Source: Heliocybe sulcata
Taxonomy: Eukaryota > Basidiomycota > Agaricomycetes > Gloeophyllales > Gloeophyllaceae
Direction of reading: 5' to 3'
NCBI GenBank assembly: GCA_004369045.1
Contig: ML213506.1
Coordinates: 1,180,264 to 1,244,263 of the forward strand
DNA length: 64,000 nucleotides
Shown here piece by piece: positions 11,388 to 62,348 of this stretch (position 1 is its first letter; the number at the start of each line of letters is the position of its first letter). The position numbers were made by a program, and so were the translations under genes. The notes below the pieces were generated by a model, which saw nothing but the letters and a program-made list of their open reading frames with translations, ran no database searches and was not told the origin of the DNA.

Positions 11388-14300
11388 ATGCCGAGCAGCA
11401 CCCAACCACGACGTCGCCTGCCTCGGCGGTCCTCTACATCCGGCCCGCCGAGACAGTTCGACTACTCGACAGTCTCAGCATCGTCGTCCTCGTCCACTCT
11501 TCACAATGAACCAGGAGCCAATGGCATAGCCAAACCGAACCCACGGCGGTTCGCGTCCAGCCCAAGCATGCGCAGGAGGAGCCGGCCCGCCTTGCGCGAG
11601 CTGTTTGTCAACACGGGCGGTGGCGACGACATGGAGGAGGAGGTTTGGAGCGACGACCATGCCTCCGAGTGGGAGCCTTACTCGGCGGCGGCAACACCGA
11701 CCTCGACGTCCCTTTCCGCTCTCCTACCCGGCCACTCCGGATCCAGCCAGCGTCTGACCTACTCCTCCTTGCCACCAACGCCGCTGTCTTCATCTCCTCC
11801 CCCTCCAGAGACACGCTATCCTGCTCATACAGTCGACCTTGACTCGCCCGCAGAACCCACTCACCCAGCAGACCCCCAGCCGCAACAGCATGCCCAGCCA
11901 TTCTCGCTATGGGACTACCTCCGCGAGGAGCTCGTTGCAAACGACTTTGACGAGCACCAGGAAATGAAATGGGAGCGGGTCGTTAACTTCCTGTCTATAC
12001 CTGTTGCAATGGAAAAGGTATGTTTCGTCGTACCTTACTCTGCTTACCGACCGGCTCAATCAGCCCACCAGATAATAGGCTTTGGCTTCTTCCTCTGCCT
12101 AGACTCCTTCCTTTACACATTCACAATCCTCCCCATCCGCTTCCTTCTTGCCCTTTTGGCTCTCTTTCGCTCCCCTTCCTCCCTCCCGTCCTCCCAGAAA
12201 GCCGACATTCTCCGCGCTCTCCTCCTCGTCGTCTCCCTCGCTATCCTGGTCCCGCTCACGGATGCATCGAAGATATACCACTCTATCCGAGGTCAAGACA
12301 CAATCAAGCTCTACGTAATCTTCAATGCCTTGGAGGTAGGGTTCCATATTCTACTCTGCAGGAAATGCGGCCTCATTTATATCAGATTGCGGACCGTTTG
12401 TTGGCGTCGATAGGACAGGACATCCTCGACTGCCTCTTCTCTCGCCCAACTCTCGCCCCTACCTCGCGCAAGGCAAAGACGTTCCGACCCATCTCGTTTT
12501 TCCTCTTCGCAGTACTCTACACTGGTGAGTTCAATTTCTGCGCCATGTGCTGCCTGTTTGCTTCGTGCCTTGTTCCCTCCCGCCGCTTGGTCTTGCATCC
12601 GTATCAGTCACTCATTCTTTTCGCAGTCTTCCACACCCTCACCCTCCTCTACCAAACCATCGCGCTTAACGTCGCCGTCAACTCGTACGATTACTCCCTT
12701 CTTACTCTCCTGGTCTCGAATCAGTTCGTCGAGATCAAAGGAAGTGTGTTTAAGAAGTTCGAGAAGGACAATTTGTTCCAAATTACATGTGCCGGTGAGC
12801 TTGGTATCTCCTTTCACGCGTGCCGTTCCACTCAGCTATCGTTTGACTTGCTCTCATCGTCATCAACCCAACCATGATCATTGGGACCCTGCTCAAATAT
12901 CTCTTTTCTGTGTCAATCGGGCGTATAGACATCGTGGAACGCTTTACACTCTCGCTCATGCTCGTTATTGTCGCGTTCCGCAATCTGATCGAGCTCTCGG
13001 GTTCGGCGATGGACTGGAGCGGGGAGGAAGGTGCATACGTCTCTTTATTACCCCCTCACATACTCGCTAACTCTCGTGCACGCCTGCAGGCATCCCGATC
13101 CCGAAGTCCTTCCTCCTCCCGAAGCGGTTCTCAGGGTGGCTCCCTTGGGCGTGGCCTGGTATACGTGGGTCAGTGGTGGGAACGATATCCTATGTGCGTG
13201 CCTCATCTTATCTCGTATACTCCGTTCTCTCTTCCGTCCCCAAGGTCTCCGTAACACCTTCTGATCTTTATTGGCCTCTCGTGTTCGCGCTATGTGTCAT
13301 ATCTTCTCTTCCAGTCCTTGCGCTACCGCCTCCCCACTCACCAGCTAACCCGTCTCCCCTGCCGTTGTAGCCCGTCTTGAGCGTCCTCGCCTCCGAAACG
13401 CTCGTCGACTGGCTCAAGCACGCGTTCATCACCAAGTTCAACCACATCCGCCCCTCTGTGTATGAGCGGTACACGGACGTGCTGTGCGGGGATCTGAAAG
13501 GCGGGTGGGTGAGGCCGGGTCAGAAGGTGTGCTTGTTATCTATCCAATTTCGTCAGCAGTTTCCTGACGTGGGTGTTCAGCACTCGTATGTGGACCAGTC
13601 CCCGCTGGTCGCCCGCCGACTTGGGTTTGCGGCGTTGCCGCTCGCGAACCTGGCCATCATTATCGGGTCGCAGTGTTTTTTTCTCCTCCTGGCTCAGTTC
13701 CAGTCCACCTCTGCTGCGTCCTCCTCGCTCGAGACGCCGTTCCCATCTCAGACGATCACGCCTGATGTATCACCTCGATCGGGCCTTGCAAGGTGGGTAG
13801 GGTGGATTGGAATGACGGAGACGAAGGAGCTGGTGAGGGTGGGCAAGTGGGTCGTGCTGGGGGCGTTGTTCTGGGCGTGGTAAGTGCTTCTTTATTTTTC
13901 TATCTTTTGTGACCCTCATGTATGCTGCCGCTCGACTTCAGCACCGTCCTCATCAAGGTCATCATTGGGATCAACTTGCTCAGCTATGCGTCTAAGCGGC
14001 AGGCGGGCGTTGCAGGGAGGGAGGCAGAGGATGCGGTGAATGATTGGGGGCGAGATCCGATTGGGGAGGATGAGGAGGAGAAGGTGGGTTGCTTTCAATA
14101 TCTTTGCTTGCCCTGGTGGTGTTGGTCTTCTGGGATTTTCTTCTGCTTATGTGACTCTGTGTTCGCGGAAGTGGCGACAGTGGGCCGTGTGTAACTACTC
14201 CTTCGTCGTTTGCAAACCGTTGTGCTGGCACGGCCCCACTGTGGACGTGGACAAACCTAGCTTCTCCTTTGCTTCGTTGTCGAGGCACTGGTGGTGGGCA

Positions 14301-25545: not shown

Positions 25546-27541
25546 CTATTGGCTGAAGTTCTTGATACCGCTGAAGTTGGTGATCGGGCCTGCTTTGCCT
25601 CCCGACACTTTCAAGGCAGACCAGTCCCAGGTGCCTGTGATTACGAGTATCAAACGTTAAACGTTAACACCAGATTATGGGTGACAGAAAGAGCAAACAG
25701 ACCAGTACAGCTTCCTTTCCCGCAATTCACGGCAACACGCTGAGCGCTACTGCCAACGCTGATGGAGTTGGTGGATCCGACGAAGTTGACGTCCTAGCGC
25801 ACACTACTCAGAAACAGGGAACCGAGGGAGCATTGGCGGTACTCACGGATATCTTCACGCCCGTACCAGGAGTACCCAAAGTGTCGGGATAGCTCTGCAT
25901 TGAATGGGTCAGTGATAACTCATCATTAACGCAAAGAGGGCAAAACAGACTTGATCGATAATGACCCCAAAGCGCTTGCAACCAGTGGCGGTGTTACCCT
26001 AGGGGACGCGTGAGCGGGCTGACCATGGAGAGAGGAAATGGGCCGAACCGAGTAGGTGACATCGGATACGGAGCTGCCAGTCGCCGTGTTGTAGGTTTTG
26101 ATGCGCAAAGCCTGGTCGCTGGATGAATAAACAGGTCAGGCGTCAGGGCGACTGGACCAGAAATAGCTAACGTGCGTACTTGTTCGTGATGGTATTGCCC
26201 GAGATGGTGATCCCGGAGACGGTGGCATCGTCTTTCACCGAACCCTAGGGTGGGCATGAGCACGGGGAAGAGGAGATACGGGGTTTGGATACTCGCAATG
26301 GAGATGCCGTGGCCGCCGGAGCAGGTGTTGCCTTTGAAGACGATGTTGGAGCCTTTGTTGATGGCGATGCAGTCGTCCTAGAAGTAAGGAAGGGGCTATA
26401 GCAGTGTGCGAGGATCATTCGACGATGTGACTGACTTGGTTGCGGATGGTGCTGGCAAAATGCATAAGTGAGTGCCTCGTGTGTACATCCGATATAGAGG
26501 CTCACGAGTTCTCAATGGTAAGATCTGTAGTACTGACGTCGAAACCGTCGGTGTTGTGGCCTACGCGATATATCAGCTCCGCTTAGAATGGGAGATCTGG
26601 TTATTCGCGCACCAGCGGGGTTTCCGTCGCTCTGGGAGTTTGCCTTGTCTCCTTGAGCTGGAAGGCAGGTGGTGTGAGACAAAGGCTGCGTGAAATGCCA
26701 ACTGGACGTACAGTTGTCGATGGTGATCTTCGAGATGGTCAAGGCTGCGGGGTTGGAGACGGAGAATGTTTGTGCGGGAGAGTTGACGACTTTTACGTTC
26801 TGTTGCGATGAGAGCGATGATTAGTATTGCCAACGATAGACTGTTGGACGGAATCTCACGTCGAACGTTCCAGATATCTTGATTCTGCGCATGTTAGACG
26901 GGCTGTTAGCACAACCGCGAAGAACTCCGTGGGCATCCTTACTTCATCATAGGGCGCGGTTTGGTGGTGCCACCGTTCGAGCCTTGGCCGTCCTGTAAAG
27001 CGGGTGGTAAGGAATATCTCGGCATGTCGAGACCAACGGAGGTCTCACTCACCCAGTAGAAAGGTCCTCCACCGTCGAATTTGTGGCCATTACCATTGAC
27101 TGCACGATACACGATCAACATCCACTCTCGTAAGCATAGGCCTTTACTCACAGGTGATGTCCTTGCCACTGTGCATATACTCAGTACGTATAGTACGCCT
27201 GTAAGACTGGAAGGTCTCACCTGATAGTGAACAATGGTCCGGCCCAGCTCTTATTGCCGAATAACACGTCTCCATCTACGGAGGACTTCATTCAGCGCAA
27301 TTCAGGTAAAATTTGAAGAGCACGCACTGAGATTTACCGTCGCGCCGTCGACCAAAGACAGGGTGAAGCCCGAGCCACCAGGGACGGTGAACCCGTTGAT
27401 GTTCACAGTCGCACATTTCTGCGCGGAAGAGACATCACTCAAGGAGGATATCGTGCCCGTGCAAGAGCTGGCGCGGGGGACGTGGGCAGCGATAGCCGAA
27501 GCGGCCGCTCCGACGAAGACAAGCTGGGATAGGGAGAACAT
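25546..27541 (-). CDS. endopolygalacturonase, GH28 (paralogue 1)
   Basis: Secreted pectinase that hydrolyses alpha-1,4-galacturonan in plant cell walls. Seventeen exons assemble to 367 residues with no frame break. A signal peptide ([18 protein letters not shown]) is followed by a short propeptide and the mature start [15 protein letters not shown]28 signatures appear in order: GHNTDGFDV (catalytic Asp), QDDCIAI (two catalytic Asp), [10 protein letters not shown] (His) and ALRIKTY (Arg-Lys substrate binding). The C-terminus [16 protein letters not shown] is typical. Several exons are very short (16, 17 and 25 nt). The intron interrupting HGISI/GSV uses a GC donor. It is a close paralogue of the gene at 38102-40137, separated from it by the LINE. 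Confidence 0.93.
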
Positions 27542-27582: not shown

Positions 27583-27943
27583 TCGTAGCTACCGGAAAAT
27601 CATGAACCTTGGTTACAACGGTGACTATGGCGGATACGGGTTCTGCCAATCTGCGTGCGATGGACCGGGAGAGAATCGAATACCATGGCCATGCAGGTCG
27701 GTCACTGGACTGGCCTCGCCATCTGAACGTCCATGCAGTCGAAAGTCTTCCTTCAGGTACTCTTCCGCGATGATGGCTTCCACCAAGCTAACAAGGCGGC
27801 CTGCGGTCTTTTGCGGCCCGGTACGGCCAGCTTCATGATGTGCCCACAAGTTCTAACCTCCTTCTTGCAATCATCACGCAGAGGTATCGGTACCTGGGTC
27901 GGTCCCGAGCGGCAACCGCCGGCCGGGCGGTCAGACGGAATTC

Positions 27944-27946
<3 letters not shown>
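27583..27946. other. upstream region of polygalacturonase 1 up to the LINE poly(A)
   Basis: No gene is seen. The last bases, CGGAATTCGAC, form the left copy of the LINE target-site duplication. Confidence 0.5.
27937..27946. repeat. left copy of LINE target-site duplication
   Basis: GGAATTCGAC lies directly beside the poly(A) tail. The identical word stands at 38041-38050, and one more base (C) matches on the outer side. Confidence 0.75.
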
Positions 27947-27975
<29 letters not shown>

Positions 27976-28030
27976 NNNNNNNNNNNNNNNNNNNNNNNNN
28001 NNNNNNNNNNNNNNNNNNNNNNNNNNNNNN
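27976..28030. other. assembly gap (55 N)
   Basis: A run of N directly after the poly(T) tract. The exact length of the poly(A) tail and the last bases of the LINE 3' untranslated region are therefore unknown. Confidence 0.95.
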
Positions 28031-28125
28031 AAGCTTATATGCGCACTAGCAACTGACTACGTACAGCCCTAGGTCGCAGCTATAGCAAGTGGCATACCCT
28101 CCACTTGGTCCGGAGAGGAAACCCT

Positions 28126-31100
28126 TTATGGGCTCCCGTATTCCGGGAAGTGACGGACTCCCTCCAACGCCCGGACTCTCTGTTGAATAAGAAAGCCAGG
28201 CGGTCGGATACCGTCTAAAACCTCTTCTTGCGGGGCCTCGGGGGGGCCATTCGGGTGGTACGTCTTGAGGACGAGTGCCCACGTTCGGAAGACGGAGCGA
28301 AGGGCACGTTTCGTGCGGCAAATTTTGGTGGCCGTAATGTAGTCGATACGAAGGTGACAGTTTATGGCATTTGTCCAGCGGCTAAGGACAGAGTTCACAT
28401 TGTGGGATTTACCTTGGATTACGCGTTCACAGCGCAGGGCCCAGATAAGGTATGCGGACTCAGAGACAAGTATACGGAGTAGGCGGGAGGCGCCTGGATT
28501 GGGGCGCATTGTCGCCGTAGTGCCACGGGTTGTCCGAGGGTCCGGAGCACGCCTGCGAGGGGGGGTGACAGTCAGTTTTCCAGCAGCGATCATGGCGCCG
28601 TAGGTGAGGGCGGGCCATGGGCCATAGGCGGAGGGCCACAGGTCGCGGGCAAGGGACCATATCAGGTCTCGGTCTGGTATGGCACAGTCTTCAAGGATAT
28701 GATCGAGGTTGTCATGAAGATTGGGGCATATTGGGCAGGGTGCCCGGTCTTTGTAGCCTGGGATGTGTGCCCAGTGGTCACCAACGCGATACGCACCATG
28801 CGTAGCTTTGAAGTTGAATTGTTGAACAACAGGGCGGATAGCCGAGTTCCGTAAGGCCAGCCACAGGTTGGCTTCGTGTTCCAGAGTCTGTGTGGAGGCT
28901 AGGAGACCATCCTGTATACGCGACAGGTTTTGCGCAGATCGCGTACGCAGCGGAAGGTCTTTGGTCTTTAATTCACGGACAGCTTGGTATGCGAGTGACT
29001 GCGTGAGAGAGGAGAGTTTGACTCCCGGTAGCCGGAAGGGTGGAGGGACTGATAGCGTAATATCAGCGGGGGTGTCCTTGAGGGCGCCTTCCCTGGCTAG
29101 GAGGTCGGCAGCTTCGTTTCCAGGGTCATTGTTGTGCCCTTTGACCCATTTGAAGGATGTGGTCGCGGAGCAGCAGCGTAGGTGGTAGGCAGCAGCTTGA
29201 AAGAGCAGGCTGTTGGAGATGCCTACCCAGCCGCGATCTTCCCAAGCACCCAGGTGTTCAGTAAGGCTGTGGATTACATACATGGAGTCTGTGACGAAGG
29301 TGATGGGGGCAAAGGTCGGGACAATCTGGAGGGCCACTACAACAGCGAGTAGCTCGCCAGCTTGGTTGGATTGATCCTCACCTGGAACACGGAGGGCTTG
29401 GTTGTACAGGTGCCCTGGGGTGACAAAGACGCCGCTGCCTGCACGGGCGGTGCCTTTGCCATTATCGAGGCAGGAGCCATCTGTGTAGATCGTCAGGTGC
29501 TCGTGGGCTAGGTTCAGGCCCGGGGCTGGGTGTCGCAGTCTATAAGCTGGTTCGTGTGGGACTTCATCAGGTCGGACAAAGACACGGAAGCACTCAGCAA
29601 GAGAGGTCTTGGCCGTGAGGGAGGGGTCAAACACTATTGTTCCCCGAGAGTGAAGAGCTTGCCGATTTTTCTCCTGGCGGCGATGCATAAGGGATAGATC
29701 GTCCGTGGCAGGGAGGTGGAAGGGGTTGAGCTTGGAGGAGAGAGAAGTAAGGATGTGTTGCGCTTGAAGTACACATCAATGTGGGTTCGCGCATCCATGG
29801 TGTCGGTCAGAGGTACAGTCCGAGCATGCACAGTTACGACGAGGGTGGTGGGTGCCAAACCTGGGGGGGTCACGAAGGCGGTTCGAGACTCGGAGGAGGT
29901 CATGGATGGTCTTAGCAGCATGTTCGTGGATGAGGCAATCGATTTTCGGGGCAATGTAGGTATGGGGTGGGGCACCTAGTAGGTAGAAGGCGGGGAGTTG
30001 CCGCTTGAGCGCACTGGACAGCTTCCGGGGTGCAAAAGCCACACCATAGCAGCGTGCAGTTCGTAGCATGAGGAGGACGTCCTGGGGGAGGCGGGCCGCG
30101 CGGTGGCCGGCAAGTGGGACGTCCCATTTCTGGAGGAAGGTGTTGAACAGGGCGGCTTCGGCAATGCCGTCTGGGGCAAGCACATTTAGGAGGAGGTCGG
30201 TGACAAAGGCCCAGGTGGGGCGGTGGGGGGAGAGGTCGAGGTAGGCTCTCAACCAGGTCAGTTCTATAGCGTCATTACGTGCTTTGAGGTCGAGTAGGGA
30301 AAGTCCTCCTTTGGTAGCTGGCTTGTATAGATGGTCCAGCGCAATAGGCGGGTTGGAGGAGTTTTCTTCCCAGATAAAGCGGCGTGTTATTTTTACCAGA
30401 GCATCTTCCACTGGGGGGGGCATACCTTGTACTTTGGTTAAGTATTGAGTCATACCACCGACAGTCGCCTGGATCAGATGTGTTTTTTCAAAAAGGGTAG
30501 GGTGACCCCGCAGAAATCTTGTTAGAGTGTGGTTAACTTTGTCCAACGTGGCCTCCCATGGGGCAGAGTTGTCAACATTATTGCCAATCCAGGCACCTAA
30601 GGAGCGTACGGCTTCGCCATCTTGTGCAATGTGGATAGAGGCCGGGAGAGGGGTGTCATCGGGGTGTAGGCATCGTGTCGTGAGAACCCGGGAGCGGTGG
30701 GAGGCTGAGCCAACAGGTATGATCTCAGTTTTTTCACTGTTGAAGCGCGCACCTGAGGCGCGACACCATGTCTCGAGACATAGGATAAGGTCGGCATACC
30801 GATCAGCTTTGCGGAGGTAAACGGTGGTGTCATCAGCAAAGAGTGTTACAAGGACGTTGTCTAAGATACCCGGGACTTGGAATCCGTGGATGGTTGGTGA
30901 AGCCTGTAACATGCAGGCTAGAGGTTCAATTGCCAGATCGAATAGGAGGCAGGAGAGGGGGTCACCTTGCCTCACCCCACGGGTGACATGGAAGGGGGAG
31001 CTAAGGGTTCCGTTTATGGCTACCCGTGTAAAGGCAGTGTCATACAGGGAACGTACCGTATCAATAAACAGGGCTGGGAGCCCGAACTTGTGCAGGGTGG

Positions 31101-33228
31101 CCCAAAGGTAGTCATGTTCAACTTTGTCATAGGCTTTCTCTTGGTCTAAGGTGATGATGACGCCATCCTCCTCCATGGCTTCAGCATAGTGGATCATGGC
31201 GTGGGATAGCCGTACTTGGTCAAAGATGGATCGGCCTGGGATAAAGCCTGCCTGATTCCGGTGGATGAGCGACGATGCGTGGGCAGAGAGTAGTATGGCA
31301 AGTGCTTTAGTGAGCAATTTGTAATCGGTGTTGAGGAGGGTGATAGGGCGGTAGTTAGCGATGTCGGTCCTATCTTTCTTCTTGAAGATCGGGCACATCC
31401 AGCCGAGCGTGAAAGATGTGGTGGGGTCGACAGCATGTAATTGGATGTTGCAGAAGACCTGGGTAAGTGCACCGATAATATTGAATGAGGGTGACTGCGG
31501 GTGCTGTTTGAGGGAGAGTTTGTGACGCTCGTGGAGGGTTTTCCAGAGTTCATAAGGCAGGCCATCCATACCAGTGGCTGTCCCATTTTTGGAGGCACGG
31601 AGGGACTCAGTGATCTGTTCTTCAGTCAGGAGGTCTCGAAGGTGGGAGGCTGCAGCATGGGGAAGGGTCTGGTTCATAGGTACAGCAGAGGTAGCTGCTG
31701 ATATATCAGCCTGTCGGACACCTGGTGCATGGGGGAGGCGTCCGTCCTCTTGCAGGTGATGGTGGTGGTTTCGTGCAAGCTCCGCCATCTCATCGGAGCG
31801 AGTAATATATTGGATGGGACAGGTTCCTGGAACTGCAAGACGGTGGAGAAGGTCATGGGGTTTTTTGTCTCGGTGGACAGTTGCAGCAAACTTGGTTGGT
31901 CGGCCCCCTTTGTCTGCCCACTGAGCTTGGCCATAAAGTTGGGTGTTCGAGAAGCGTTTTTTCTGGAGGTGGGCCAGTTCGCCCTCCAGGGCAGCAGAGT
32001 GTGCACGTGCCTCGTCAGACATGTCCATGCTGGGATCGTTTAAAGAGCGAGTCAGGTCGCGTTCTAGAGCAGTAATTTTGTTATTTATTTTAGCAAGGGT
32101 CACTTTGGCATGTTGTCTACAGAGAGTGCGGACACGTTCTTTCCAGTGGGCCCAGAGGCGTTGTGCATTTGCTTCCGGTGAGCGAGCACTTGCAAGGTTA
32201 GCCAGGTCTTTCTCCAGTTGGAGACCAAGGTCGACAATTGCAGATAGAAGTTTGTCGTCGTGGAGGAGTCCCATAGGCCACGTCCATCGTCCTGTACCGA
32301 TAAAGGGGGCAGTGAGGGGTGAATACTTCACCGTCGTCAGGTTATGATCAGTTGGAACAATGCTAGGTCCTATAGACCACTCATACAGGTAGGGCAGGGT
32401 CCTGTATTTGGTATAGATGCGGTCGATACGGGAAAAGGTGTTGCCGCTGGTTCAAAAGGTGTAGCTGCGATCAGATGGTCGATCTGCCCGCCAGGCGTCA
32501 ACGAGGTTGAGAGAGAGACGTAAGTCCCGTAGGGCTGCAGAAGGGGCCTGGGGATCCAGCCGAGGTGGGGAATGGTCTATAGGGTCCTCAACCAGATTGA
32601 AGTCGCCCATCATAAAGTCTGGTTTTGGTAGAGTGTGCGTAGACCAGTAGTCTTCTAGTGTTTCCCAGAAGGCGGCCTGTTGATGGTAGTCATTTGGTGC
32701 ATAGACATTGAGTACGGAGAGTGAGGTGGAGTTGTGCCAGGAAGTGGTGAGGAGGAGCGCGTGTCCGGGGATTATTTCGCGGATCTGCAGGTCGGAAATA
32801 GAGGTGACTTCCCGGTTCAGAACGAAAGCTACACCTGCGGACGAGGTAGGATTGGTAGGATTGGGTGAGTTGATGACCAGGAGTCGGCGTCCAAAGAGAT
32901 TGTGGATGTCATCTACCAGAGGTGGGGTAAGGTGGGTTTCCTGCAAGGCAAGAATGCCTATCCGCTTATTGCGTACCAAGGCGTGAATAGTTGTCCATTT
33001 TGACGATGCTGCGTGGCCTGGTGAGACAGACAGGCGTCCACGCATGTTGAGCATTCCAAGTGTAATGTTTGCGTGGGTGTTTTTTCCTCGCGGTAGATTG
33101 GGGTGGTGTGGTAAAGATGCTCCTTGCGGAGGGTCCCCTTCAGGCGGGACCTGAGTGTCTGTGGTATTAGCCACTCCGCCACCGAGCTCCCCATCAGCTT
33201 CATCACAGGTGGTTCGGGCGGCAATCAT
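28126..33228 (-). pseudogene. LINE ORF2: APE endonuclease, reverse transcriptase, RNase H
   Basis: One frame of about 1700 codons from ATG at 33228, interrupted by TGA at 32452-32454 and 29776-29778. The endonuclease (33228 to about 32350) shows LGMLNMRG, ILALQETHL, FMMGDFN and VPTDHNL. The reverse transcriptase (about 31600-30600) shows GFIPGRSIFDQVRLSHAMI, ITLDQEKAYDKVEHDYLW, TRGVRQGDPLSCLLFDL and the catalytic FADD in LVTLFADDTTVYLRKA. After a Cys-rich segment (NCACSDCTSDRHHGC), the RNase H domain (about 29500-29080) has LTIYTDGSCLDNGKGTA, NQAGELLAVVVALQ, ITFVTDSMYVIHSL and NDPGNEAADLLARE. Every catalytic motif is kept. Apart from the two TGA codons the reading frame is intact, so the insertion is young. 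Confidence 0.9.
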
Positions 33229-33858
33229 ACCGCCCGCTTGGCTGAGAGGGAGGGACGAACCAAAACCGAGAACAGAACCAGGCCTTATAATAGCTGAGGA
33301 GGAGTGGGTTGGAGTCGCTCTACTTATCCTACCTTACGACAGTGGGGTAGGACAGGGTGGGCATATACCGGCCCTCGCAGCGAACTATGCTAGAGGGTTC
33401 ACTAGGGTCATACCCCCGACGGAGACCCTAGGTACTGCCTGTCGCTTCAGTCTCTCGACACGGCTCGTTCAAACCTGAATAGGTTTCCGTAGGCACACTG
33501 CCAGGTGTTTCGAGAGGTTAGACTTAACTGCTTTCCTGTCCCGCATACGGTCAGTATATTTGGGCAGCCAGTGTTGATGGCGCAGATGCACTCCCGGGGC
33601 ACCCGCGTCTTTTTCGTGGGGGGGGCTCTACCAAGTTGGATCGGGCGAAGTAGGTCCCCCTCTTGTGGGTAGCGATATAGGTCTGTATGTAGGATATATT
33701 GCATGGTAGGCATACAGACAGTATTATATAGCATATGACTAAGTACTGTAGGGCTAGAGCATTTTTACGAGAGTGGGGATTTTGCGCGGGGCAGATGTGG
33801 AACTCAGAAGAAATTCGGGCAAAAAAAGATTTCATACAAGGGGGGGGTGTGCGAGAGG
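33229..33858 (-). other. LINE spacer between ORF1 and ORF2
   Basis: About 630 bp without a continued frame. It is longer than usual for linked LINE ORFs and may serve reinitiation or an internal start for ORF2. Confidence 0.5.
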
Positions 33859-35787
33859 CTAGTGCTGACGTCCTTGTCCGCGCCCCCTGCCGCGGCCCCT
33901 ACCGCGACCTGGCGCTTGGTACGGGCCACGCCCTGCAACAGTCGGTATGAAGGAGGCGATGGTGTCGAAGTATTTGCCGGTGTGGGGCTCAGGGTTAGCA
34001 CGGGTGAGGCCGAAACTGTCATTGTCCGGGCCCTTCCAGCCGGCAATGGAGGGGAGAGAGCACAGGCCACGGGTATGGGTGGCGCAGGTACATATGGTGC
34101 ACGAGAGGGGTGTGGTGAGTCGACCGGTACCAAAGAGCACGGTAGGGTATGCCTGATGGAGGAGGATATTACGAAACTTAATCCATGCCTCAAGCGTCGT
34201 GAAGGGGCTCCAGCGAAGAAAGATGTTGAAGACAGGGGTCTCGAGACCGCCGCGTGCTTTGCGGTCGAGTTTGATGGCATCGAGGCTCGGTAGGAGGTCG
34301 GACAGGATCGCGATCGCGTATAGGTCGTCTTCCAGGTCGAGGTCATCGGTAAGTACTTTGATCATGTCGGAGGATGCCGGGTCGTCGTTCAGTGCCGATC
34401 GTATGGCGCCGAGCACCACGTCTGCCGAGTCAGTCGTGAAGCCCTCCGTTTGTCCAATGAACTCAGGTGGTTTGATGTCGGCTAGCGTGAGGAAGGGCTC
34501 AACGTAGAAAGTGATGTTGTCGGCGCTCCACCAGCCCTGTTCCAGCAGGTGGTCAGCGAGAGCTTCGGGGAAGTTGTATCCCAGGAACGAGGTGGGCGGC
34601 GGTTGATCAGGCTGCATGACAGTCGGTGGGGCAATGTGGTAGTCTGTCGGCGAGGGGGTGGGTGTCTTAGCGTTTATGCGGCCAACCTCTCGCATGAGCG
34701 CCGCGGTGATGACCGTGTCTGTGAGCTTGGGATCACGGTCGCAGCAGTTTGCGGGAGTGATGAGGAGCTTCCGGCCGTCACACTGCAGGGCGATCCACTC
34801 GCCCACCGTGGAGGTTGTAATGTTAGAGAAGCGTTGGCCCGGCCGCGAGACAATCGGGGCAGGGAAGCCGCCCAGAGGAGGTAAGGTATAGTCGCAGGGC
34901 GGGGCCGGGGCGGGTGCAGGATTCAACAGGTCTGTGGGTTCACCGCCCGAGGCCATGAGGCCAAGCGCGTTGATGTGCCGCGCGTCCTCGGCTGCCTGCA
35001 TGACAGCATGATGGTAGGCAATGGGGGAGACCGGGTCCTCGACCATGCGTTCCGGATCCGGCGAGAGGGCAGAATGTCGAGGCGGCGGGGTATGTGGAGT
35101 GGGCATTCCGGGTGTGGGTGAGCGCGTGTCGTTGAGGGTGAGGCGGCCCGCGTGGTTAGAGTGCGGGCGGGCTCGAGCGGGCGTAAGTGGTGGTATGGCA
35201 TGGGGTATTCCCTGCAGATGCTCAGCAATAACGCGAGCCCGTTGCGCAATGCGGGCGTTGGCTTCAGCACGTAAGACTAGAGTGTCTCGGGGAGTCGCGC
35301 GTGGGGCTGCGGTGCCGCGCGTCATACCATTGCGTAGCAGAGTGGTTGGGTCATTTACACGGATCGTCGTCTCAGGGCGTACCTCGTGGTCCGGGTCCAC
35401 TAGCATGCCCGTGTGCTCGGCCAGAGCCCCAGGGGAGCTAACTGGCGAGGGGGAGGGTGATAGGTCATCGCCCATGGCGCCGTCTTCCAGTGCGTCCCGG
35501 GCGTCGGTAAGATCTGGTTTGGTTTTGTTGGGGACGGGAATGGTGAGGGTAAGGACAGGTGGGTCGCGAGCAGGCGCGTGGATGGAGGCGGCTGTCCCGT
35601 GATCAGACTTCGGTGGGGCTGCCGCGGCTGCCTTCGCGTATGTGGGTGGAGGTGGCGGCACGGGTGCTGTAGGGGATGGGGGTTGTTCACCCAGCTCGGG
35701 CGTCAGAGCTAGGGGAGTGTCAGACTTTGGGCCGGACGGAGGGGAGGTTCTGCGTACTGGGGGCCCAAATGGTGATACTACTCTCAT
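33859..35787 (-). CDS. LINE ORF1, gag-like RNA-binding protein
   Basis: The open frame gives 642 residues from the first ATG (MRVVSPFGPP); the frame itself is open to 35847. The N-terminal half is a Pro/Ala-rich disordered region. The middle has folded-looking sequence (FLGYNFPEALADHLLEQGWW, FLTLADIKPPEFIGQTEGF). A Cys/His segment, CTICTCATHTRGLCSLPSIA, resembles the CHxCLSxDHxTGLCPFPxIPGW motif of fungal LINE ORF1 products. The C-terminus is an Arg/Gly repeat (GRGRGRGRGRGQGRQH) suited to RNA binding. A second frame just upstream (from about 35929, MPSDPSGKQIRDATLKANTK) also looks coding, so the true N-terminus may lie there with a frame change near 35790. Confidence 0.8.
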   Translation of the reverse strand: MRVVSPFGPPVRRTSPPSGPKSDTPLALTPELGEQPPSPTAPVPPPPPTYAKAAAAAPPKSDHGTAASIHAPARDPPVLTLTIPVPNKTKPDLTDARDALEDGAMGDDLSPSPSPVSSPGALAEHTGMLVDPDHEVRPETTIRVNDPTTLLRNGMTRGTAAPRATPRDTLVLRAEANARIAQRARVIAEHLQGIPHAIPPLTPARARPHSNHAGRLTLNDTRSPTPGMPTPHTPPPRHSALSPDPERMVEDPVSPIAYHHAVMQAAEDARHINALGLMASGGEPTDLLNPAPAPAPPCDYTLPPLGGFPAPIVSRPGQRFSNITTSTVGEWIALQCDGRKLLITPANCCDRDPKLTDTVITAALMREVGRINAKTPTPSPTDYHIAPPTVMQPDQPPPTSFLGYNFPEALADHLLEQGWWSADNITFYVEPFLTLADIKPPEFIGQTEGFTTDSADVVLGAIRSALNDDPASSDMIKVLTDDLDLEDDLYAIAILSDLLPSLDAIKLDRKARGGLETPVFNIFLRWSPFTTLEAWIKFRNILLHQAYPTVLFGTGRLTTPLSCTICTCATHTRGLCSLPSIAGWKGPDNDSFGLTRANPEPHTGKYFDTIASFIPTVAGRGPYQAPGRGRGRGRGRGQGRQH

Positions 35788-36416
35788 CTCGCACCGGGAC
35801 CGTTTGGGGTGGCACCGGCGGCATGTCGCGCTCGTCGGCAGCACCACTATTCCTCGTCCTACGTTTGGTTTTGGTATTCGCCTTGAGCGTGGCGTCGCGT
35901 ATCTGCTTCCCGCTGGGGTCGCTCGGCATCTTGGCTAGGTAGTGGAGGGCGGTAAGCCAGAGCAGTGTCGAGCTGTGGTGGGCCGGGTGGGTAGGGAGCT
36001 GGGCGATTGCATCGCGCGCGGCCGCTTTTATACGTCTGTCGGTCCATGGGTGCAAGGGCGTCGCGGGACCAAGTCAGAATGGTGGAGGCCAGGGGGGGCC
36101 AGAGTTGGCAACGCGTCAACAGCCGGTGGCGTTCGTCTGCGACGTTGGTATCGCTAGTCTTGCGAAGTTGAAGTTGGCATTGTAAGGCTTCGGAGGAGTG
36201 CGTCGGTTCTGCTGCGCGTGGGCGGCCGGTGGCGCAATGTTTGTGTCTGTGTGGTGCGTATGTCGTGCGTGTGTGTTGCAGATCTGGGGACCCGGAGCAC
36301 TCGGTGGAAGCATATCACGAGGTAAAGGCATACCATTGGCAGTCGAGTGAAGGGTATTTTGTTGCTCTAGGAGGAGTGGGGGTTGCATTAGATTGTAAGT
36401 AGTAAGGAGAGGGATT
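35788..36416 (-). other. LINE region between the MYND gene and ORF1
   Basis: It holds the possible out-of-frame N-terminal part of ORF1 (35929-35788) and, at about 36028-36034, TATAAAAG in the sense strand, which could act as an internal promoter. No further complete frame is supported. Confidence 0.4.
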
Positions 36417-37234
36417 TTAGAGGTTAGGTACAGGTGCGGGATTGTAATGGATATAGAGGAGGTAGTTTAGTGCGAAATAAACGTCCTCTGCAGTTACGAC
36501 AAGGTTATCTTCGACGATCTCCGGGCCGCTTTCCCAGCACCCTATGAGAACTAGGCCTCGCATTCTGAGGCCTCCGTCGGTGAGTCGAAGAATAGATTCA
36601 TTGTGAGGCAGGAGGTCGTGACCGGCTTGAGCGAAAGCCAGTTCTTCGAACCAGACTGTGATGGGGCGGTGAAGGTGGTGCCCGTCTGGAGAGTGTGGGA
36701 TGTTGAAGGAGCAGAAGGGCCGGCCTTCGAACAAGGTGTTAAGGACGCGCATGGTTCCGGGAGTGGGTCCACGTGACGGAAAGTAATGCAGCTCAGGGCG
36801 GCCTGTATATGGGATCTGGGTCAGCGGGGGATGTGAGTGGGATGGGTGGGCATACTCGGTCGGAACCAGAAGATCATAGCTGTGGCTGCATAGGTGGCTT
36901 GGTGGGGAGGGGGGTGCGCATCCATGTAGGCTGGGAGGATAGTGGTACACTGGAAGCGGGTCCGCAGGATGCAGACGCACAGGGGAATATGGGAAGGTAG
37001 GCGGTGGAGGGACTGCACAGCATGCAGTCTGGCACAGTAGAGAAGGGTCAGACAGGATTGGCATATTAGCTGCGCCCGTGTAGGGCAGCCGTCCATAAGG
37101 CAAGGGCGGTCTGCTATGAGCTGGGGCATGATGTCTGGGGAGGTGGGCATGGTTCCACCGCTTTTATGGGGTGTTAAGAGGTAACGTAATGGGGTTGGTT
37201 TGCGGCACATATGTTGGGGCTGGTAGGTTTCCAT
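36417..37234 (-). CDS. MYND-type zinc-finger protein encoded near the LINE 5' end
   Basis: Two exons, 36856-37234 and 36417-36802, give 254 residues. The 53 bp intron has a GTATGC donor, a CTGAC branch site about 18 nt before the acceptor and an ATACAG acceptor. Splicing joins two frames that otherwise stop. Residues 45-86 hold C45, C50, C58, C61, YC67, H71, H77, H82 and C86, the MYND spacing apart from a four-residue first gap. MYND domains bind short peptides such as PxLxP and usually mediate repression or scaffolding. The second exon encodes a compact unknown domain (FCSFNIPHSPDGHHLHRPIT, PHNESILRLTDGGLRMRGLV). It lies inside the LINE boundaries and shares its strand and base bias. Either it is an extra ORF of the element or a host gene captured by it. 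Confidence 0.65.
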
Positions 37235-38040
37235 GTTTTAGATATCAAGTGTACGTACATAGGATATTAGGGTGGGAGGAGGTTCCTGGGCTATTGTGAA
37301 TGGGGGGGGCTAGAATGGGATGGATGACTGCGGGATACATAAGTATGTGTTCCATGTCAGGTATCCAGGATATGGTCTGGGCATGCGCGAGTGGTAGGAG
37401 GGGGTCGTGGGGGCTGGTGTTTGGGTCGCAGTGTTATCCCCACGGTGTATTGGTTCTGCAGGGGCTCAACTAATTGGGAGGGGGGGTTGCCCGGCCAGTT
37501 CATGGTGTTCGGGCATGGGTGGGAAGGTAACAGAATTGCCATAACGGTAGGGTTCAATTTTGATAATCATTCAGTAAGGTTTCGGCTCCCCGGGGGGCTC
37601 GCCGGGGTCCCGGTGGGCGGGGGGCGTGGGGCGGCGTTTGGGTGCCTGCGGTCGCACCTGCTAGCAGGGCGGGTGGTGCGCGTACAGGTGTCGTTGGGGA
37701 CGATGTGAGTCTAGTAGGGTGCGATGGCTTTCACTCGTGGGGGGTGATCTCGTACGCTGTGTGTTTGTTTGGGAGGATCAGTAGCTACAGGGTAGGTCTC
37801 GGAGGTGTCATTAGTAGGAGTTCGCATTGGCGAGGTTGGCGGGATTGCGGCGAGCGCGCAGAGTTCGTACGTCAGTTGTGGTATCGGGTATATCTCTCAT
37901 CGTCCGTAACGAGCAGAGTGCAGTCGAGGTGCATTTTATGGGAGCAGACCTCGCGGTTGGGGCTCGACGACCCCTCCTTGCCCTGGCTTGCGCGTGGGAA
38001 ATCCAGAACCAGGTGGTGGTTCAGGATCAAGGAGCTCTCC
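37235..38040 (-). other. LINE 5' leader
   Basis: About 800 bp, strongly C/A-rich on the transcribed strand, with short frames only. It begins immediately inside the right target-site duplication. Confidence 0.6.
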
Positions 38041-38050
38041 GGAATTCGAC
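38041..38050. repeat. right copy of LINE target-site duplication
   Basis: GGAATTCGAC, identical to 27937-27946. It lies about 50 bp beyond the stop codon of polygalacturonase 2, so the LINE entered that gene's 3' flank without harming its coding sequence. Confidence 0.75.
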
Positions 38051-38101
38051 TTGCACATTTCCCAGGCACTGCCCAGTGCCGAAGACTACAGTGACGGACT
38101 A

Positions 38102-40137
38102 CTACTGCGTGAACCCATCAATGCCTGTAAAGTTATTGATAGGTCCAGCTTTTCCTCCCGATACTTTCAGGCTCGACCAGTCCCACGTTCCTGTTGGTCC
38201 AGCATCGACATCAGCAGTCGTCTCTACCGAAACAGTTGGCTTCCTCACCAAGACAGCCTCCCACTGCACAGTTCACAGCGACGCGGTCCGCACCACTAGC
38301 CACGGATATACTCGACTCGGCGCCGATGAAATTGATGTCCTTAAAAGGTCAGGTCAGTAGATCTACGAACATCGCCGAGCGGAACTGCAAACTGTAACTT
38401 ACCGAGATCAAGACGCCGGCACCGGGAACGCCAAGCGTGCTAGGATAACTCTATAGATTCAGGTCATTACATGCGACTCTAGTTCAATCCGGCCCGTGGC
38501 AGAGAAGGCAAAGCTCACCTGATCTATCAAGACACCGAACTTGGTGAGATTCGTCGCAGTGTTTCCCTGCCAGTACAGGTGCGCACATCAGCACATGGTA
38601 CTATGATGGAGGATACTTCTCAGAAGACGCACAATATAAGTGATGTTGGAGACAGTGCTGTTGGACGCTACTGCGTCCGTTTTGATGCGGATGGCCTGCT
38701 GCCTGTCCCGGGAAACCATGTTACTACTGGCCCCAATTGATATATGTCAAATAGGCGCACTCGTTCATGATATGATTATTGGAGATCACTACTCCGGACA
38801 CGGAGTGGTCGGACGTAATGGAGCCCTGGTCACAGTGGTCGGCATGAGACCGTTACGAATGTAAACTTGAAGAACGCACGATGGAAATGCCATGCCCGCC
38901 TGAGCAGACGTTGTTGGTAAATACTATATTGGAGCCTTCGTTGATGGCGATACAGTCATCCTGAGGAAAGGTCATTCTTCAAATCATGGAGTAGGATAGC
39001 TGTACAAAATGGTCGTATACCTGGTTCTTGACGGTACTGCATGAAAGAAGACAATAAGAATAGGCTGTTGCAGCTAGTGAGTGAGACTACTATACCTATT
39101 TTCAATGACCAGGTCTGTGGTGCTGACGTCAAATCCGTCGGTGTTGTGACCTGAATGGCGATACTCCCATGAATGGTACAGTTACCTGCCATGGCACTAA
39201 CACTTACCAGCCGCGAGGCCGTTGCTCTGGGAGTTGGGATAATTGCCCTGTGCTGCGAAATGTTCCTTAGGTTAGTGCATGAGAGAGAGTTAGGGCGCAA
39301 TACGTACAGTCGTCAACCGTCACGGACGAAATAACAAGCGGCCCGGGATTCGAGACGGAGAACGTCTGTGCCGGTGAGTTCACCACGTACAGGTTCTGGG
39401 AATCCCAAAGGGAATGGCGTGAGGGATTGTACAATATGACATGAGCCGAGCACAAACGGATAATTTCCCAGACATCTTGATCCTAATGAGCGATGCATAA
39501 ACATCAAATCGACAGGCTAGTAGAGCTGGAGTTACTTTAGCATGGGGCGTGGCTTTGTTATGCCTCCATTAGATCCAAGACCGTCCTGCGAGATTTAATT
39601 GTACGTCAATGTGATATATATTTCCAGCTCAGCTTTACACTAACCCAGTAGAATGGGCCTCCGCCATCGAACCTGTATCCATTTCCATTGACTTGTGACA
39701 ATGTCAGGGCTAAAGGTTTCGAGCTTCGGAACGAAACTCACAGGTAATGTCGTTCCCGCTGTTGCGACGGCATGTGAGAACAGAGAACGATAATTAAACA
39801 TGATGGGATATGCACCTAATAGTAAACAGCGGCCCCGCCCAGCTCAGGTTGCCAAACAAGACGTCACCCCCTAAACAGACATGGTCTCAACTAAATAGTA
39901 AGAATAAGAGCAGGCGCAATACTGACGTAAATTGACGGTTGCGCCGTCTACGAGGGACAGCGTAAAACCTTCGCCGGCGGGCACCGTGAACCCCTCAATG
40001 TTAACAGTCGAGCACTCCTGCGCGGACGCGACATCGCTCAAGGAGGCGATGGTCCCTACACAGTCGGCACTCCGAGTCGTAACCCCGGAGACAACAGCAG
40101 AGACGAACAGCCCAGCGACCAACAGTTTTGCCAGCAT
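38102..40137 (-). CDS. endopolygalacturonase, GH28 (paralogue 2)
   Basis: Secreted pectinase, the same family and intron layout as the gene at 25546-27541. The start [18 protein letters not shown] is a signal peptide, then [20 protein letters not shown]28 motifs follow in order: [23 protein letters not shown] and AIRIKT. The C-terminus is [20 protein letters not shown], ending GFTQ. Exon joins checked across the length keep the frame, and the length is about 368 residues. The intron after HGISI uses a normal GT donor, unlike paralogue 1. The two genes were probably adjacent tandem copies before the LINE inserted between them. Endo rather than exo activity is inferred from motif resemblance. 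Confidence 0.92.
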
Positions 40138-44336: not shown

Positions 44337-47300
44337 TCATGTCACGTAGAGAGTCACCTGGTTGCCAGGTCGGTATGACTCGAAAGCCATCTGTACATCC
44401 TCCGTGGAGCCGAGAGACACCATGTCACCGTCCTCGTCCCTGTACTTGACGCGTAAAGGACCGTCATCTCGCCGGGGACCGCATAGACGGATCTTGCGAC
44501 CGACGCGCTCGACGAGCTCGACGTACTCGGTGGATTTTGGCACTTGGATCACAAAGATATCTTCGTGGAAGTGCACCTTCACTTTCACCTGCGGGGCCAA
44601 CTTGGAGGAAGGGTTCCCGTAGTTGTCGAAGTTTTGAGATCGTGAAGGTCGAAGCGCACCGCCTATCGAAGAGTCACTCGAGCCATACGGTGTAATCGGC
44701 GAGGTTGTTTGCGGCGAGTAATCAGAGCTTTCACCCGTCGACTGGCTGGAACCGCTCCCCCGCTTGTTGGAACCGGCCTGGGCACGGGTCTGATCCACCC
44801 AGGGCATCGACGTAGGCAATGGGGGAGGCACCTGCCGCGGGACGAAAGTACTAGGCTGGCTCGCACTTCTCGTTCGCATCGACGGCATAGAGTTGTGCGG
44901 AGCAGCACCATTCGGACGACCCTCCCCGACCTCGTACGAAGCCTTCAGTCGCGTCGAGCTAAACTGACTTCGTAGCTTGGGTTTAACACCGGTGCCGAAA
45001 CTGGCGTCAGACGCGTGGCTCGCTACACTTGCAGTTGAGGATAGGCGCGTCGTAGGGGGCCGATTAGACATAGGCGCAGAAGGCAAGCCGGGAGCGGGGG
45101 GATGGGATAGGGATTGGCTTGCCAGCCTGACGAGAGGCGGTGCAGTCTCGTAACCTTCTCGATCCACCGAGCTTGGCACATTGGACCTGCGACCGTTCAC
45201 TGGTGTTCCGCGCCCGGAAGGCGGCCGACTGACCGCAGACGGATAGTCCTCGTATTCATCCTCCGGATCGAGGTCGAATCCGCCTTCATACGGGGGGTAT
45301 CCATATGGACCAACACCATTCACGCTGGCGTAGCCGTTGTGGATCTGCTCCTGGCTGCTGTAAGGGCTCGGGTGGTGGCTCGCTGTACCATTCGCTGGAC
45401 CAGGATACGGTGGTAGCGTCCCGTAGCTAGTTTGCGACGTCGTGGAATACGTCTTCTCATGGTTGTAGGGCATCCCGGGGCGCACTTGAGGCGCCGGACT
45501 GGTGCTGTTGCTCATCTGAGACACGAACTTTGACGTGTTCTTCTCGGACATCCTGCGCGAAGCGACCTCGTTGATTAAACGATTGATAGCAGCCTCCCAC
45601 TGTTTCAGTTGCTCGTCTGTCCGGCACCGCAGAGTGAAGTGCTCGAGGTCGTCTTCTCCCTTCCACCATACAGCAAGCGAATAACCTATAAGAAAGCATT
45701 TAAGCCGGGTAACAGTCCGCGAGACGGGGACACTAACCAGATTTGGTGCTGGGCGCCGCTTGAGTCACATTATTCAGGAAAATGCGACCTTTCAACAAGA
45801 GTGGAGTAGTCTTTTTCTTCGGGGGTCCGACACCGCCAGGAAGCGGCGTGGCGGGTCCGTTAGGTGGCTTCTTCAATAGCGAGTTGCTCTTATTGACCTT
45901 CTTGCCATTGACCATGGACAGAGACGCCTCCTTGCAGCAAAGAATTATCTTTTCGAACAAGAAAACGTGATACTCGCGATCGACGTCAGATTTCGTCACC
46001 ACGAAGATGTCGTCCAACAACAGGTCGCCGAAATTGGAGAGATGATGGCCCTTCCAATCCTCTACGCGGGACTCCAAGTTCTTGACGGTCTGCTTATTCT
46101 CAGCTCTCCGTTGCGCTTCATTGATTCTATCGGTTATTCGTTTGGCTGAGGCGCAACCCTTGACAAGTTCATCGTAATGCGGATACTCGCTAGCAGGGGA
46201 CGCCTTGATAAGCGACTATGACGGTAAAAACGTCGGTTAGATGCTCAAATAGCGCGGCCGGACGTTCAAGCTCACATCCAGTAGTAGAGGGTACTTGCAG
46301 ATACGCTGCACAGGCTTAATTAGGAAGGCGGGCAACTCGGATTTGACATTGATCAGATTGTTGTGGCTCTGTTGTGAAGTGTTTGTCAGCAAAGACGGAA
46401 AGCGCCGGAGCGCCCGCATGTTACCAGGCCAACAGGACCACGATGCCCGGTTGCAATGTCGCACTCACCATAAGGTTCTGTTCCTCCGCCAACATAATTT
46501 CTTGTGCAGTATTGTAGTTGGCACAGTAAGGTTCGTAGACTGCAAACTCTTCTTCCTATTGTTTTCGAGCGGGGATAGTGGGGAATGGAGGCGGGCATGA
46601 TCCGACGAAATGAATACAATGGGAGTTCCAAAGTCAGCACAAAAAGGCGTATCAATATCCATCACTGAGCAAAGCAACGTACGCATTCGATGAAATGGCA
46701 GCCCCATCGCTGATCCTTCCACGACATCTCAGCCGTCCCTTCAAACCGAATGAGAAATTTGCGCTGGAAGTTGAGCAGCTTGTTCAGATTAGGGAATAGC
46801 AGGTGAATAGTATCTTGGTCTATGGTATTGCTCTGGGATAGCGCCATGGAGTAATTCTTTGGTCCATGTGAGTCCATCGCTCACACAATAAGATGAATAA
46901 GGCCAGGCACACCTGCATCACTTCCAAGTCCTGTACGTATTTGCGTTCCGTCTCCACCATCTCCCGTATAATATTCATCCGCGCCGCCTCCTGTGCGTTT
47001 GCGGGTGTCGAGAAATGAGCGGTAACTTCAGAGGGCGCTAAGGACTCAGATGATTCGTGGGCCGGGAATACTGAAGGAGGGGACGAAGGCAAGGCCTCCA
47101 TGAACACGTCTTCGGGTAATCGATCAACAAGCATAGTCACAGTCTTGACAGCCTGCGGGGCGTTATAGATGCATATAACGGGAACAAGAAGCGCTATACT
47201 CACCTTGACGAGCCCATCGTTAGAGTGCCTCTCCCACAAATCCGTCACCGTGAACTGTTCGCACTCGGGGACCTGTCTCAGCTGCATGGCAAAGAGAGCA

Positions 47301-60900: not shown

Positions 60901-62348
60901 CTTATGTTGTCGACGTCAAAGCGGATCCAAGCCCTGTCATAGACATCCGGCGTGTAGAGGAGGAAGATGACGTGGTGCATAGTGACGAAGAGGATCTCAA
61001 TGAATCAAGGGTTGCCGATATCCCGGAGACTAGTGCTGGACCAGAAGTAGTACGAGGAGCGCAGGATGAGGATGAGGAGATCAAGTGGGACGGTGAGGAA
61101 AGGGCCGTCATGGACTTCCCTCCCGTCGCCGAGCGCAGAATCATGCGACCTGCTACTGCGAGTGCGGTGCGAAGCCCTTCGCCTCTGCATGAGAGCAGTC
61201 TTGCACCTTCACAGACTGACTCTGTATATGCTCCGCGTATGGCGCCTTCGGATTCTGCATCTCTCCGTGACGATGCTGCCTCCTATGTCTCAGCCTCCGA
61301 TGTGCCATCGAGTGGTGCAAGCGGGCATCTTTACAATCCCAATTCTCCACCTGCGCTCACATCGTCCACTGATTCCTTGGCAACACCGTCGACGATGTCC
61401 GAAGACCCGTCACTTCCGAGCGCCCTTTCTGTGGATCGTGATATTGCGCAGGGCAAGGCATTCTCCCCTTATAGCCAGCCATCGTCTCCCAAGATCGCCG
61501 ATAACTCCGACCTTCCATTAACTCCATCCCACGAGCGAACTGGCTCTGCGAGTCCTGTTCCTTTCCCTTCAGAACTGGAAAAGGCCGCTCACACATACCT
61601 GGACCGTTCACGGTCAGGGGTGGTCTCGCTCAGCAACGTCGCGCGAGAACGTGAGGACCATACCCGATCTGCCTCTACCTCTACCGTGCCTCTGCCTCGT
61701 GCACCGCGGATGAAGAAGCCGTCTTTGCATCTGCTTTTCACCAAGCGTAAGTCTGGCTCTCCTGTAGCATCGCCATCGTGGCAATCGGATACCCACGGCA
61801 CGTCCCCTTATTTGCACACGGCTGCAACATCGCAATCTTCCATTTCGATGCCTGGCACGGCCGTCACCGCCCCCCAAACGAGCACAATGAGTTTACCTCC
61901 TAAGTTAGACTTGTCTATAGAGTCGTCCCCTATCAAGTTCGATATCGCTGGCTCTGCCGATGTCAACGCTGAAAAGACTCAAGCACCTGGTCTTGTCTCT
62001 CCAGAGTCGTCCGAATCAGCGTCTACAGTCACCCATGCACCTCCCGCTATGCAAGAACGAAGCCTGTCCTCAGTATCTTCATCCACGTATGAGTCCTCTC
62101 GGTCCCATGAGACTCCTATTGCGGATATGTACTGTCAAGGTTCCAATCAGTCGACGCTCTCTGTTCGGGCACCGTCGGTTGCTGACAGTCCGGTCGCCGC
62201 CCCCGAGTTGGCGAGGTTCCCAGCGTCTCCACCGGACGCCAAGAACCAGTACAGCATCTATGTCGACGACGACGATTCTGAGGAGGATTGGGTTGGCAGC
62301 GTCTTGAAGGCTGCTGAAGCCGAGAATGGAGCTACCGAGCCTTCGTGA
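57938..62348 (+). CDS. RhoGAP-domain protein with long disordered flanks
   Basis: GTPase-activating protein for Rho-family GTPases. Four exons (57938-60135, 60190-60242, 60296-60382, 60436-62348) give 1416 residues. The first 660 are disordered, rich in Ser and Pro, with poly-Pro (SPLPPPPPPKPPG) that could bind SH3 or profilin. The RhoGAP domain spans about 690-930: ALVVRCAQHLLRWGIEEEGL, then GLFRISGRSS with the catalytic arginine finger, AVASIFKAYLRELPEPILTH, LISRLPVENRALLRTVTELI and MPLSNLLLVFCPSL, in which the conserved Asn is kept. An insert of about 60 residues lies between the PEPIL helix and the LPxxN helix. The last 480 residues are again disordered, with an acidic end. Three introns fall inside the domain, the first within the arginine-finger motif. 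The exact GTPase is unknown. Confidence 0.9.

Follow-up and report, generated by a model that had tools for sequence, protein, structure and literature searches.

How does a retrotransposon that is copied from RNA come to carry, near its 5´ end, a gene that still has its intron? The question is raised by a long interspersed nuclear element (LINE) in a 64-kb stretch of Heliocybe sulcata contig ML213506.1 (hereafter the window; contig C4 of a 31.6-Mb genome in 51 contigs). An initial annotation, made from the letters of this DNA, had the element reach well beyond its first open reading frame (ORF1) and take in a two-exon gene for a MYND zinc finger. An element copied from RNA is expected to lose a sense intron, and the annotation offered two ways out: the copied RNA was unspliced, or the gene was gained after insertion. 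We find that the MYND-like gene belongs to the mobile unit and was carried along by the LINE when it inserted, independently, at two loci.

The window LINE occupies about 10.1 kb on the minus strand (27947-38039). Read on that strand, the order is GTCGAATTCCG (38050-38040), 5´ leader, two-exon gene (37150-36417), ORF1 (from 35929), ORF2 (33228-28126), a run of N, 29 A and again GTCGAATTCCG (27946-27936). The 11-mer that had been noticed beside the poly(A) tail and at 38040-38050 is an exact duplication with two occurrences in the window, both strands counted. The unit is indeed bounded by this duplication, past ORF1, and spans 27947-38039. The two-exon gene with an intron at 36803-36855 lies between ORF1 and the 5´ end as described, and ORF1 and the endonuclease, reverse transcriptase (RT) and RNase H are all present.

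A DNA search of the same genome with the whole unit gave at least eight matches (match counts from own-genome searches are lower bounds), comprising six colinear pieces on contig C8, one on C2 and one on C9. Leader, MYND-like gene, ORF1, ORF2 and poly(A) stand in identical order in the window and C8 units, and the C8 unit is flanked by a different, 10-bp duplication, ACAATATGCT, starting at 69152 on the 5´ side and at 80995 after the poly(A). The 5´ ends of the two units are 13 nt apart. BLAST of the window unit against the fetched C8 stretch revealed nothing alike past the ends of the C8 unit. Because the flanks are unlike and the duplications differ, the two are separate insertions, and one duplicated locus was rejected as an explanation. 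The C8 copy, with its own duplication, shows the gene at the corresponding place, and the gene has therefore moved together with the LINE, as the annotation had supposed; the same copy led us to reject the idea of a neighbouring gene engulfed by a wrongly drawn boundary. The C8 copy is decayed: its MYND-like gene is broken by a frame change and stops, and its RT part has three TGA codons and one TAG. The C8 ORF1 is also interrupted, at C8 71964-73844, by a repeat of ~1.9 kb with long inverted arms, partly N. Among the own-genome matches listed, no intact copy of the MYND-carrying LINE was found.

The intron sits at one protein position in the window, in C8 and in related genes on C29 and C12; as the last two are duplicates of one another, these are three separate witnesses. 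It is 53 nt long in the window (GTATGC...ACAG), 62 nt in C8 (GTACGC...ATAG) and 68 nt in C29 and C12 (GTATGC...CCAG). Counted by eye, the phase is 1 (after the first codon base) in window, C8 and C29/C12, and CTGAC-like branch sites were likewise read by eye in the introns. The donor GTATGCC stands at the matching place in a remnant of the gene on C9. Since a sense intron has been kept in two diverged, separately inserted copies, the sequences point to an RNA that was unspliced at the MYND intron when it was copied into DNA. This is the half of the annotation's dilemma that stands; gain of the intron after insertion was rejected, as its position is identical in diverged copies.

Global alignment over the 5´ 2.4 kb of the window and C8 units gave 83% identity for the first 110 nt and 44% for the remaining leader, 60% for exon 1, 53% for the intron, 62% for exon 2, 44% for the spacer between the MYND-like gene and ORF1, and 60% for the start of ORF1. 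As a control, 20 shuffles of the leader had a mean identity of 43.7% and a maximum of 46.6%. With exons above the shuffle level and spacers near it, the MYND exons appear as a conserved island amid largely saturated spacers. Ratios of non-synonymous to synonymous change (dN/dS) were taken from Nei-Gojobori counts and are rough, as dS exceeds 1 in most parts: 0.30 for exon 1 (90 codons), 0.35 for exon 2 (124 codons, bootstrap 0.19-0.54). The main part of ORF1 gave 0.24, the endonuclease 0.15 and the RT part 0.10. The RNase H part of ORF2 had a ratio of proportions (pN/pS) of 0.25. For exon 2, pN/pS was 0.53 in the coding frame and 0.98 and 1.35 in the other two frames, and the differences summed over exon 2 and both portions of exon 1 (the finger and the remainder) fell on codon positions 1, 2 and 3 as 67:57:108 (chi-square p=8e-5).

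We also asked what else in the genome resembles the element. An RT query gave at least five matches, in three elements: those on C4 and C8 and one on C2. The C2 LINE (about 1954826-1964795) belongs to another family, with an RT part 41-44% identical, and is full-length, with a duplication of 15 bp, AGATATGAGTGACTG, whose two copies start at 1964795 and at 1954826, a poly(A) tail, and a 5´ end about 650 nt before its own ORF1 ATG. A scan for MYND-type patterns on both strands of the 16.5-kb C2 region found none. A plain LINE of this type thus exists in the genome, and, judged by this single control, the MYND module is specific to the C4/C8 family. Copies of the MYND-carrying family that begin just upstream of ORF1 were sought in this one genome and none was found, the C2 element that does begin so being of the other family.

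Searching the genome with the spliced protein gave at least eight matches, of which C4 (the window), C8 and C29 have two apiece and C12 and C9 a single one. The C9 match is weak (E 0.02); this locus has a leader 84% identical over 67 nt and a remnant of the finger, with no ORF1 or RT match. At C9 there is also a repeat related to the C8 ORF1 insert (L012 minus, about 1420 to 590). C29 and C12 form a duplicated segment, about 97% identical, in which the MYND-like gene lies in a C-rich block; neither locus has a leader match, an ORF1 or an RT. On C29 the gene carries an exon 1 stop; on C12 its exon 2 is split by an insert of ~0.9 kb (L053:4692-5569) with inverted ends ACGAGTCCTGAGG / CCTCAGGACTCGT.

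A further locus bears on where the gene came from. Profiles of the finger and of exon 2 were run against a small set of fetched loci, many of them chosen for MYND matches, and each detected one and the same additional gene, present on C34, C12 and C29, with E values of 1.4e-4 to 8.1e-4 for the finger and 7.8e-4 to 7e-3 for exon 2. On C34 this gene has an open three-exon model of 194 residues with a MYND finger at 27.6 bits, over the cut-off. Each of the two LINE profiles scored 18.5 bits against the corresponding half of the C34 protein, a score reached by 0 of 2000 shuffles, and failed on the other half. Between the finger and the C-terminal domain lies an intron of 50 nt in phase 1, like that of the LINE gene; an alternative of 44 nt with the donor GTCAGA is also phase 1. 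No open model was obtained for the C29 and C12 copies, whose first exon, read from the corresponding start, is not in frame. The C34 gene sits in a repeated segment of 1.5 kb, 92-98% identical, on C34 (L055:3547-5051), C29 (L051:5593-7110) and C12 (L054:1339-2855). The two genes are thus alike in having a finger and a C-terminal domain with a phase-1 intron between, whereas the C34 gene differs in its canonical finger, its setting in a repeated segment and the lack of any LINE seen around it. We take the two to share ancestry. Because the C34 gene has the canonical finger and the C2 LINE is without the gene, capture from the host is the likelier direction of transfer. Acquisition of a MYND-like gene by the LINE is, on these sequence comparisons, well supported.

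The features of the window LINE are collected in Table 1. The start codon of the MYND-like gene is ambiguous (37234, 37150 or 37129).

Table 1. Features of the MYND-carrying LINE, in window coordinates
Feature	Position	Strand	Evidence or remark
Target-site duplication, 5´ side	38040-38050	.	CGGAATTCGAC on +; exact 11-bp match to 27936-27946
Target-site duplication, 3´ side	27936-27946	.	Directly after the poly(A) tail
Whole LINE insertion	27947-38039	-	Duplications; colinear second copy on C8 69162-80994 with own duplication
Conserved 5´ leader	37939-38039	-	83% identity to C8 over first 110 nt; third copy on C9; predicted cloverleaf-like RNA fold
MYND-like gene exon 1, zinc finger	36856-37150	-	Finger residues common to window and C12/C29; initial portion found in C8 and C9 too
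Spliceosomal-type intron, 53 nt, phase 1	36803-36855	-	Position shared with C8 (62 nt) and C29/C12 (68 nt); donor also in C9
MYND-like gene exon 2, C-terminal domain and stop	36417-36802	-	Identity 50% to C8, 33% to C29; profile matches last exon of C34 MYND gene
TATA-like motif TATAAAAG	36025-36032	-	103 nt before ORF1 ATG; consensus match only; similar motifs in C8 and C2
ORF1, gag-like	33859-35929	-	CCHC zinc knuckle CTICTCATHTRGLC, RG-rich end; frame broken between 35720 and 35847
ORF2 endonuclease part	32452-33228	-	Exo_endo_phos 34.2 bits; ends at in-frame TGA
ORF2 reverse transcriptase part	29776-32451	-	RVT_1 130.9 bits; ends at in-frame TGA
ORF2 RNase H part and C-terminus	28126-29775	-	RNase_H 93.6 bits
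Poly(A) tail	27947-27975	-	29 A as assembled; adjoins N run 27976-28030

Exo_endo_phos, RVT_1 and RNase_H in ORF2 are all over their Pfam cut-offs, and ORF1 had no Pfam match; a knuckle of the form C-x2-C-x4-H-x4-C was read by eye in the window ORF1 and in the C2 ORF1. A poly(A) tail and target-site duplications are present in the window, C8 and C2 elements alike. The window copy is itself broken, by the frame change in ORF1 and the two in-frame TGA codons in ORF2. A bias of C over G on the LINE sense strand extends from the leader through the MYND-like gene and the spacer into the ORFs, and it weakens towards either end of the element. This bears out the annotation's remark that the gene shares the strand and the skew of the LINE, with the reservation that a flank bin outside the element (26001-26500) is skewed too. 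In 500-nt bins between 28000 and 38000 the skew is mostly -0.2 to -0.4, non-coding leader and spacer included, and it marks the limits of the element. Reading frames flanking the LINE encode DUF747 (11388-12410), PB1 (44340-45551) and RhoGAP (60450-62345) domains. A transfer RNA scan and an Rfam scan at gathering thresholds gave no match in the window, and the LINE RT found no relative in a viral contig set.

The 5´ leader is firmly conserved in sequence. The predicted folds are cloverleaf-like in window and C8 and of related shape in C9 (z -2.11, -2.69 and -2.17). The consensus fold of the three sequences has 38 pairs, with a compensatory change in 3 of the 38 and a broken or gapped pair in at least one sequence in 11, and its covariation term is unfavourable (+1.89); the modelled RNA fold is therefore suggestive, as drawn from three sequences. 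A ribozyme like that of hepatitis delta virus was rejected: three Rfam matches up to E 10 were returned for 37000-38200, none of them a ribozyme. TATA-like motifs precede ORF1 in window, C8 and C2, and the window and C8 copies have others close to the MYND ATG; all are consensus matches only, and those close to the MYND ATG do not align between copies.

Taking these data together, the reading that we consider probable is that the lineage of this low-copy fungal Tad-like LINE took in, on the 5´ side of ORF1, a host-type MYND gene with its intron and maintains that gene under selection as a structural part of the element. Full-length RNA would start at the folded 5´ leader, stay unspliced, and serve both as the template for copying and as the message for ORF1 and ORF2. 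A separate, spliced message would make the MYND-like protein, whose finger, if it works as in known MYND proteins, may bind host chromatin or corepressor proteins. This contact might blunt silencing of the element or steer the LINE in the genome, as proposed for the PHD fingers of CR1/L2 LINEs. The annotation's ideas of contact with host silencing complexes and of mushroom MYND families descended from such elements are likewise conjectural.

How far the finger merits the name MYND matters for this reading. In window and C12 its ligands follow C-x4-C-x7-C-x2-C-x4-Y/F-C-x3-H...H-x3-C. A loose MYND-type pattern, written after the gene had been seen, occurs once in the six frames of the window, at this gene. 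The two best of five hits in a PDB profile search with the finger were ZMYND12 chains, at E values that are not significant (0.17 and 0.2); exon 2 had no PDB match, and an AlphaFold model of exon 2 alone (mean predicted local distance difference test score 33) was left unused. As the finger alone is below the Pfam cut-off, homology to the C34 gene is needed for the assignment. The annotation's MYND finger consequently survives in a weakened form, through the similarity of both halves to the C34 gene: by sequence, the finger is MYND-like and not a full Pfam MYND.

A number of results weigh against the favoured reading. The window finger scores 13.0-15.2 bits against PF01753 (zf-MYND), below the cut-off of 22.7, and among five aligned family members scanned only the window member gave a zf-MYND match. 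The window and C8 genes were absent from the 34 matches listed by a whole-genome Pfam MYND search, 19 of them over cut-off. Two spacings between the ligands depart from the canonical finger, although the order is retained. Alignment of the finger with five host MYND fingers by hhalign gave no support (probability 1.6, E 0.03), and the finger profile found no match better than E 5 at the loci with the most canonical fingers (L021-L024). On the side of selection, the bootstrap range for exon 1 dN/dS is wide (0.00-0.55), the high dS blunts the ratios in general, and the 89 nt that lead into the MYND exon and the 110 nt leading up to the ORF1 ATG, at 51% identity each with gaps, also lie slightly over the shuffle level. 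The only two full-length copies found in this genome are both broken, so that activity is predicted at most; the separate spliced message and the host-to-LINE direction are both inferred, and the evidence comes from one fungal genome.

One rival is that a host MYND gene was simply swept in by 5´ read-through, with no benefit to the LINE. In its favour, the MYND dN/dS of about 0.3 shows weaker constraint than the 0.10 of the RT, and the gene is broken in C8 and in C29/C12. Such a passenger would, however, decay at the rate of the spacer, whereas the exons are conserved and the spacer is at shuffle level, and the third-position excess and the exon 2 frame control also speak against it. We regard a passenger as improbable. 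The loci on C9, with leader and MYND remnant, and on C29/C12, with the gene in its C-rich block, have no ORF1 or RT matches, and they invite the thought that leader and MYND-like gene are an element or host gene of their own, joined to the LINE by chance at a few loci. Window and C8 nevertheless have a common junction to ORF1, the duplications flank the whole unit and not the module, and C9, C29 and C12 are decayed or beside other repeats; chance joining seems to us likewise improbable.

Two further proposals also start from the capture. The intron may have been kept by selection, for instance if the protein can be expressed only after splicing, or it may be spliced only from a short message made by an internal promoter. 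TATA-like motifs, which both copies have before ORF1 and close to the MYND ATG, speak for this variant; the failure of those close to the MYND ATG to align between copies counts against it, and we hold it to be possible, if doubtful. A bolder version, which we think rather unlikely, would have the LINE behave like a small retrovirus: its genomic RNA would be copied unspliced, and splicing would yield the message for a captured MYND-type protein able to disarm or recruit the chromatin silencing of the host. Broken 5´ pieces such as C9 and C29/C12 would then re-scatter MYND genes across the genome.

The label Tad-like is provisional and follows the I-group/Tad-like architecture of the element. 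Like Tad1-like fungal LINEs, the window LINE has a CCHC ORF1, endonuclease, RT, RNase H, poly(A) and target-site duplications; it differs by ~2 kb of extra 5´ sequence with the folded leader and the intron-containing MYND-like gene. LINEs with captured domains are already known, and fungal DNA transposons reportedly encode TET/JBP enzymes. Because MYND fingers bind corepressors in animals, the MYND-like gene may help to show how fungal LINEs deal with silencing and whether they take MYND genes along when they move; the intron is a testable case for how a LINE separates copied RNA from translated RNA. Among the listed matches of our open-literature searches we found no report of a LINE with a MYND-type gene, or of one that retains a sense spliceosomal intron within a captured gene across two diverged lineages; a relative may be catalogued in Repbase or in subscription papers, which lay outside this scope. 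The MYND passages of PMC3562529 and PMC4469406 describe no MYND gene in a LINE.

Captured accessory domains of other kinds offer the closest comparisons. According to the available text of PMC5563155, TRAS and Jockey LINEs carry viral helicase domains, and the TRAS helicase is reported to suppress silencing; these elements resemble the window LINE in keeping a captured accessory domain, which in their case is an enzyme of viral origin inside ORF1 or ORF2. The bdelloid rotifer long terminal repeat (LTR) and Penelope-like elements described in part of PMC5408684 also have captured extra ORFs, and the LTR ORF3s are said there to be expressed from spliced messages; unlike the window LINE, they belong to other classes, and ORF3 follows gag and pol. 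In CR1/L2 LINEs, as far as the accessible sections of PMC4120745 go, ORF1 contains a PHD finger or an esterase, and targeting in the host genome has been suggested for the PHD. The likeness to the window LINE lies in the capture of a zinc finger known from chromatin proteins, and the difference in its placement: the PHD sits in ORF1, in a single ORF or at the start of ORF2 (PMC4120745), whereas the MYND-like finger is encoded by a separate gene with an intron of its own.

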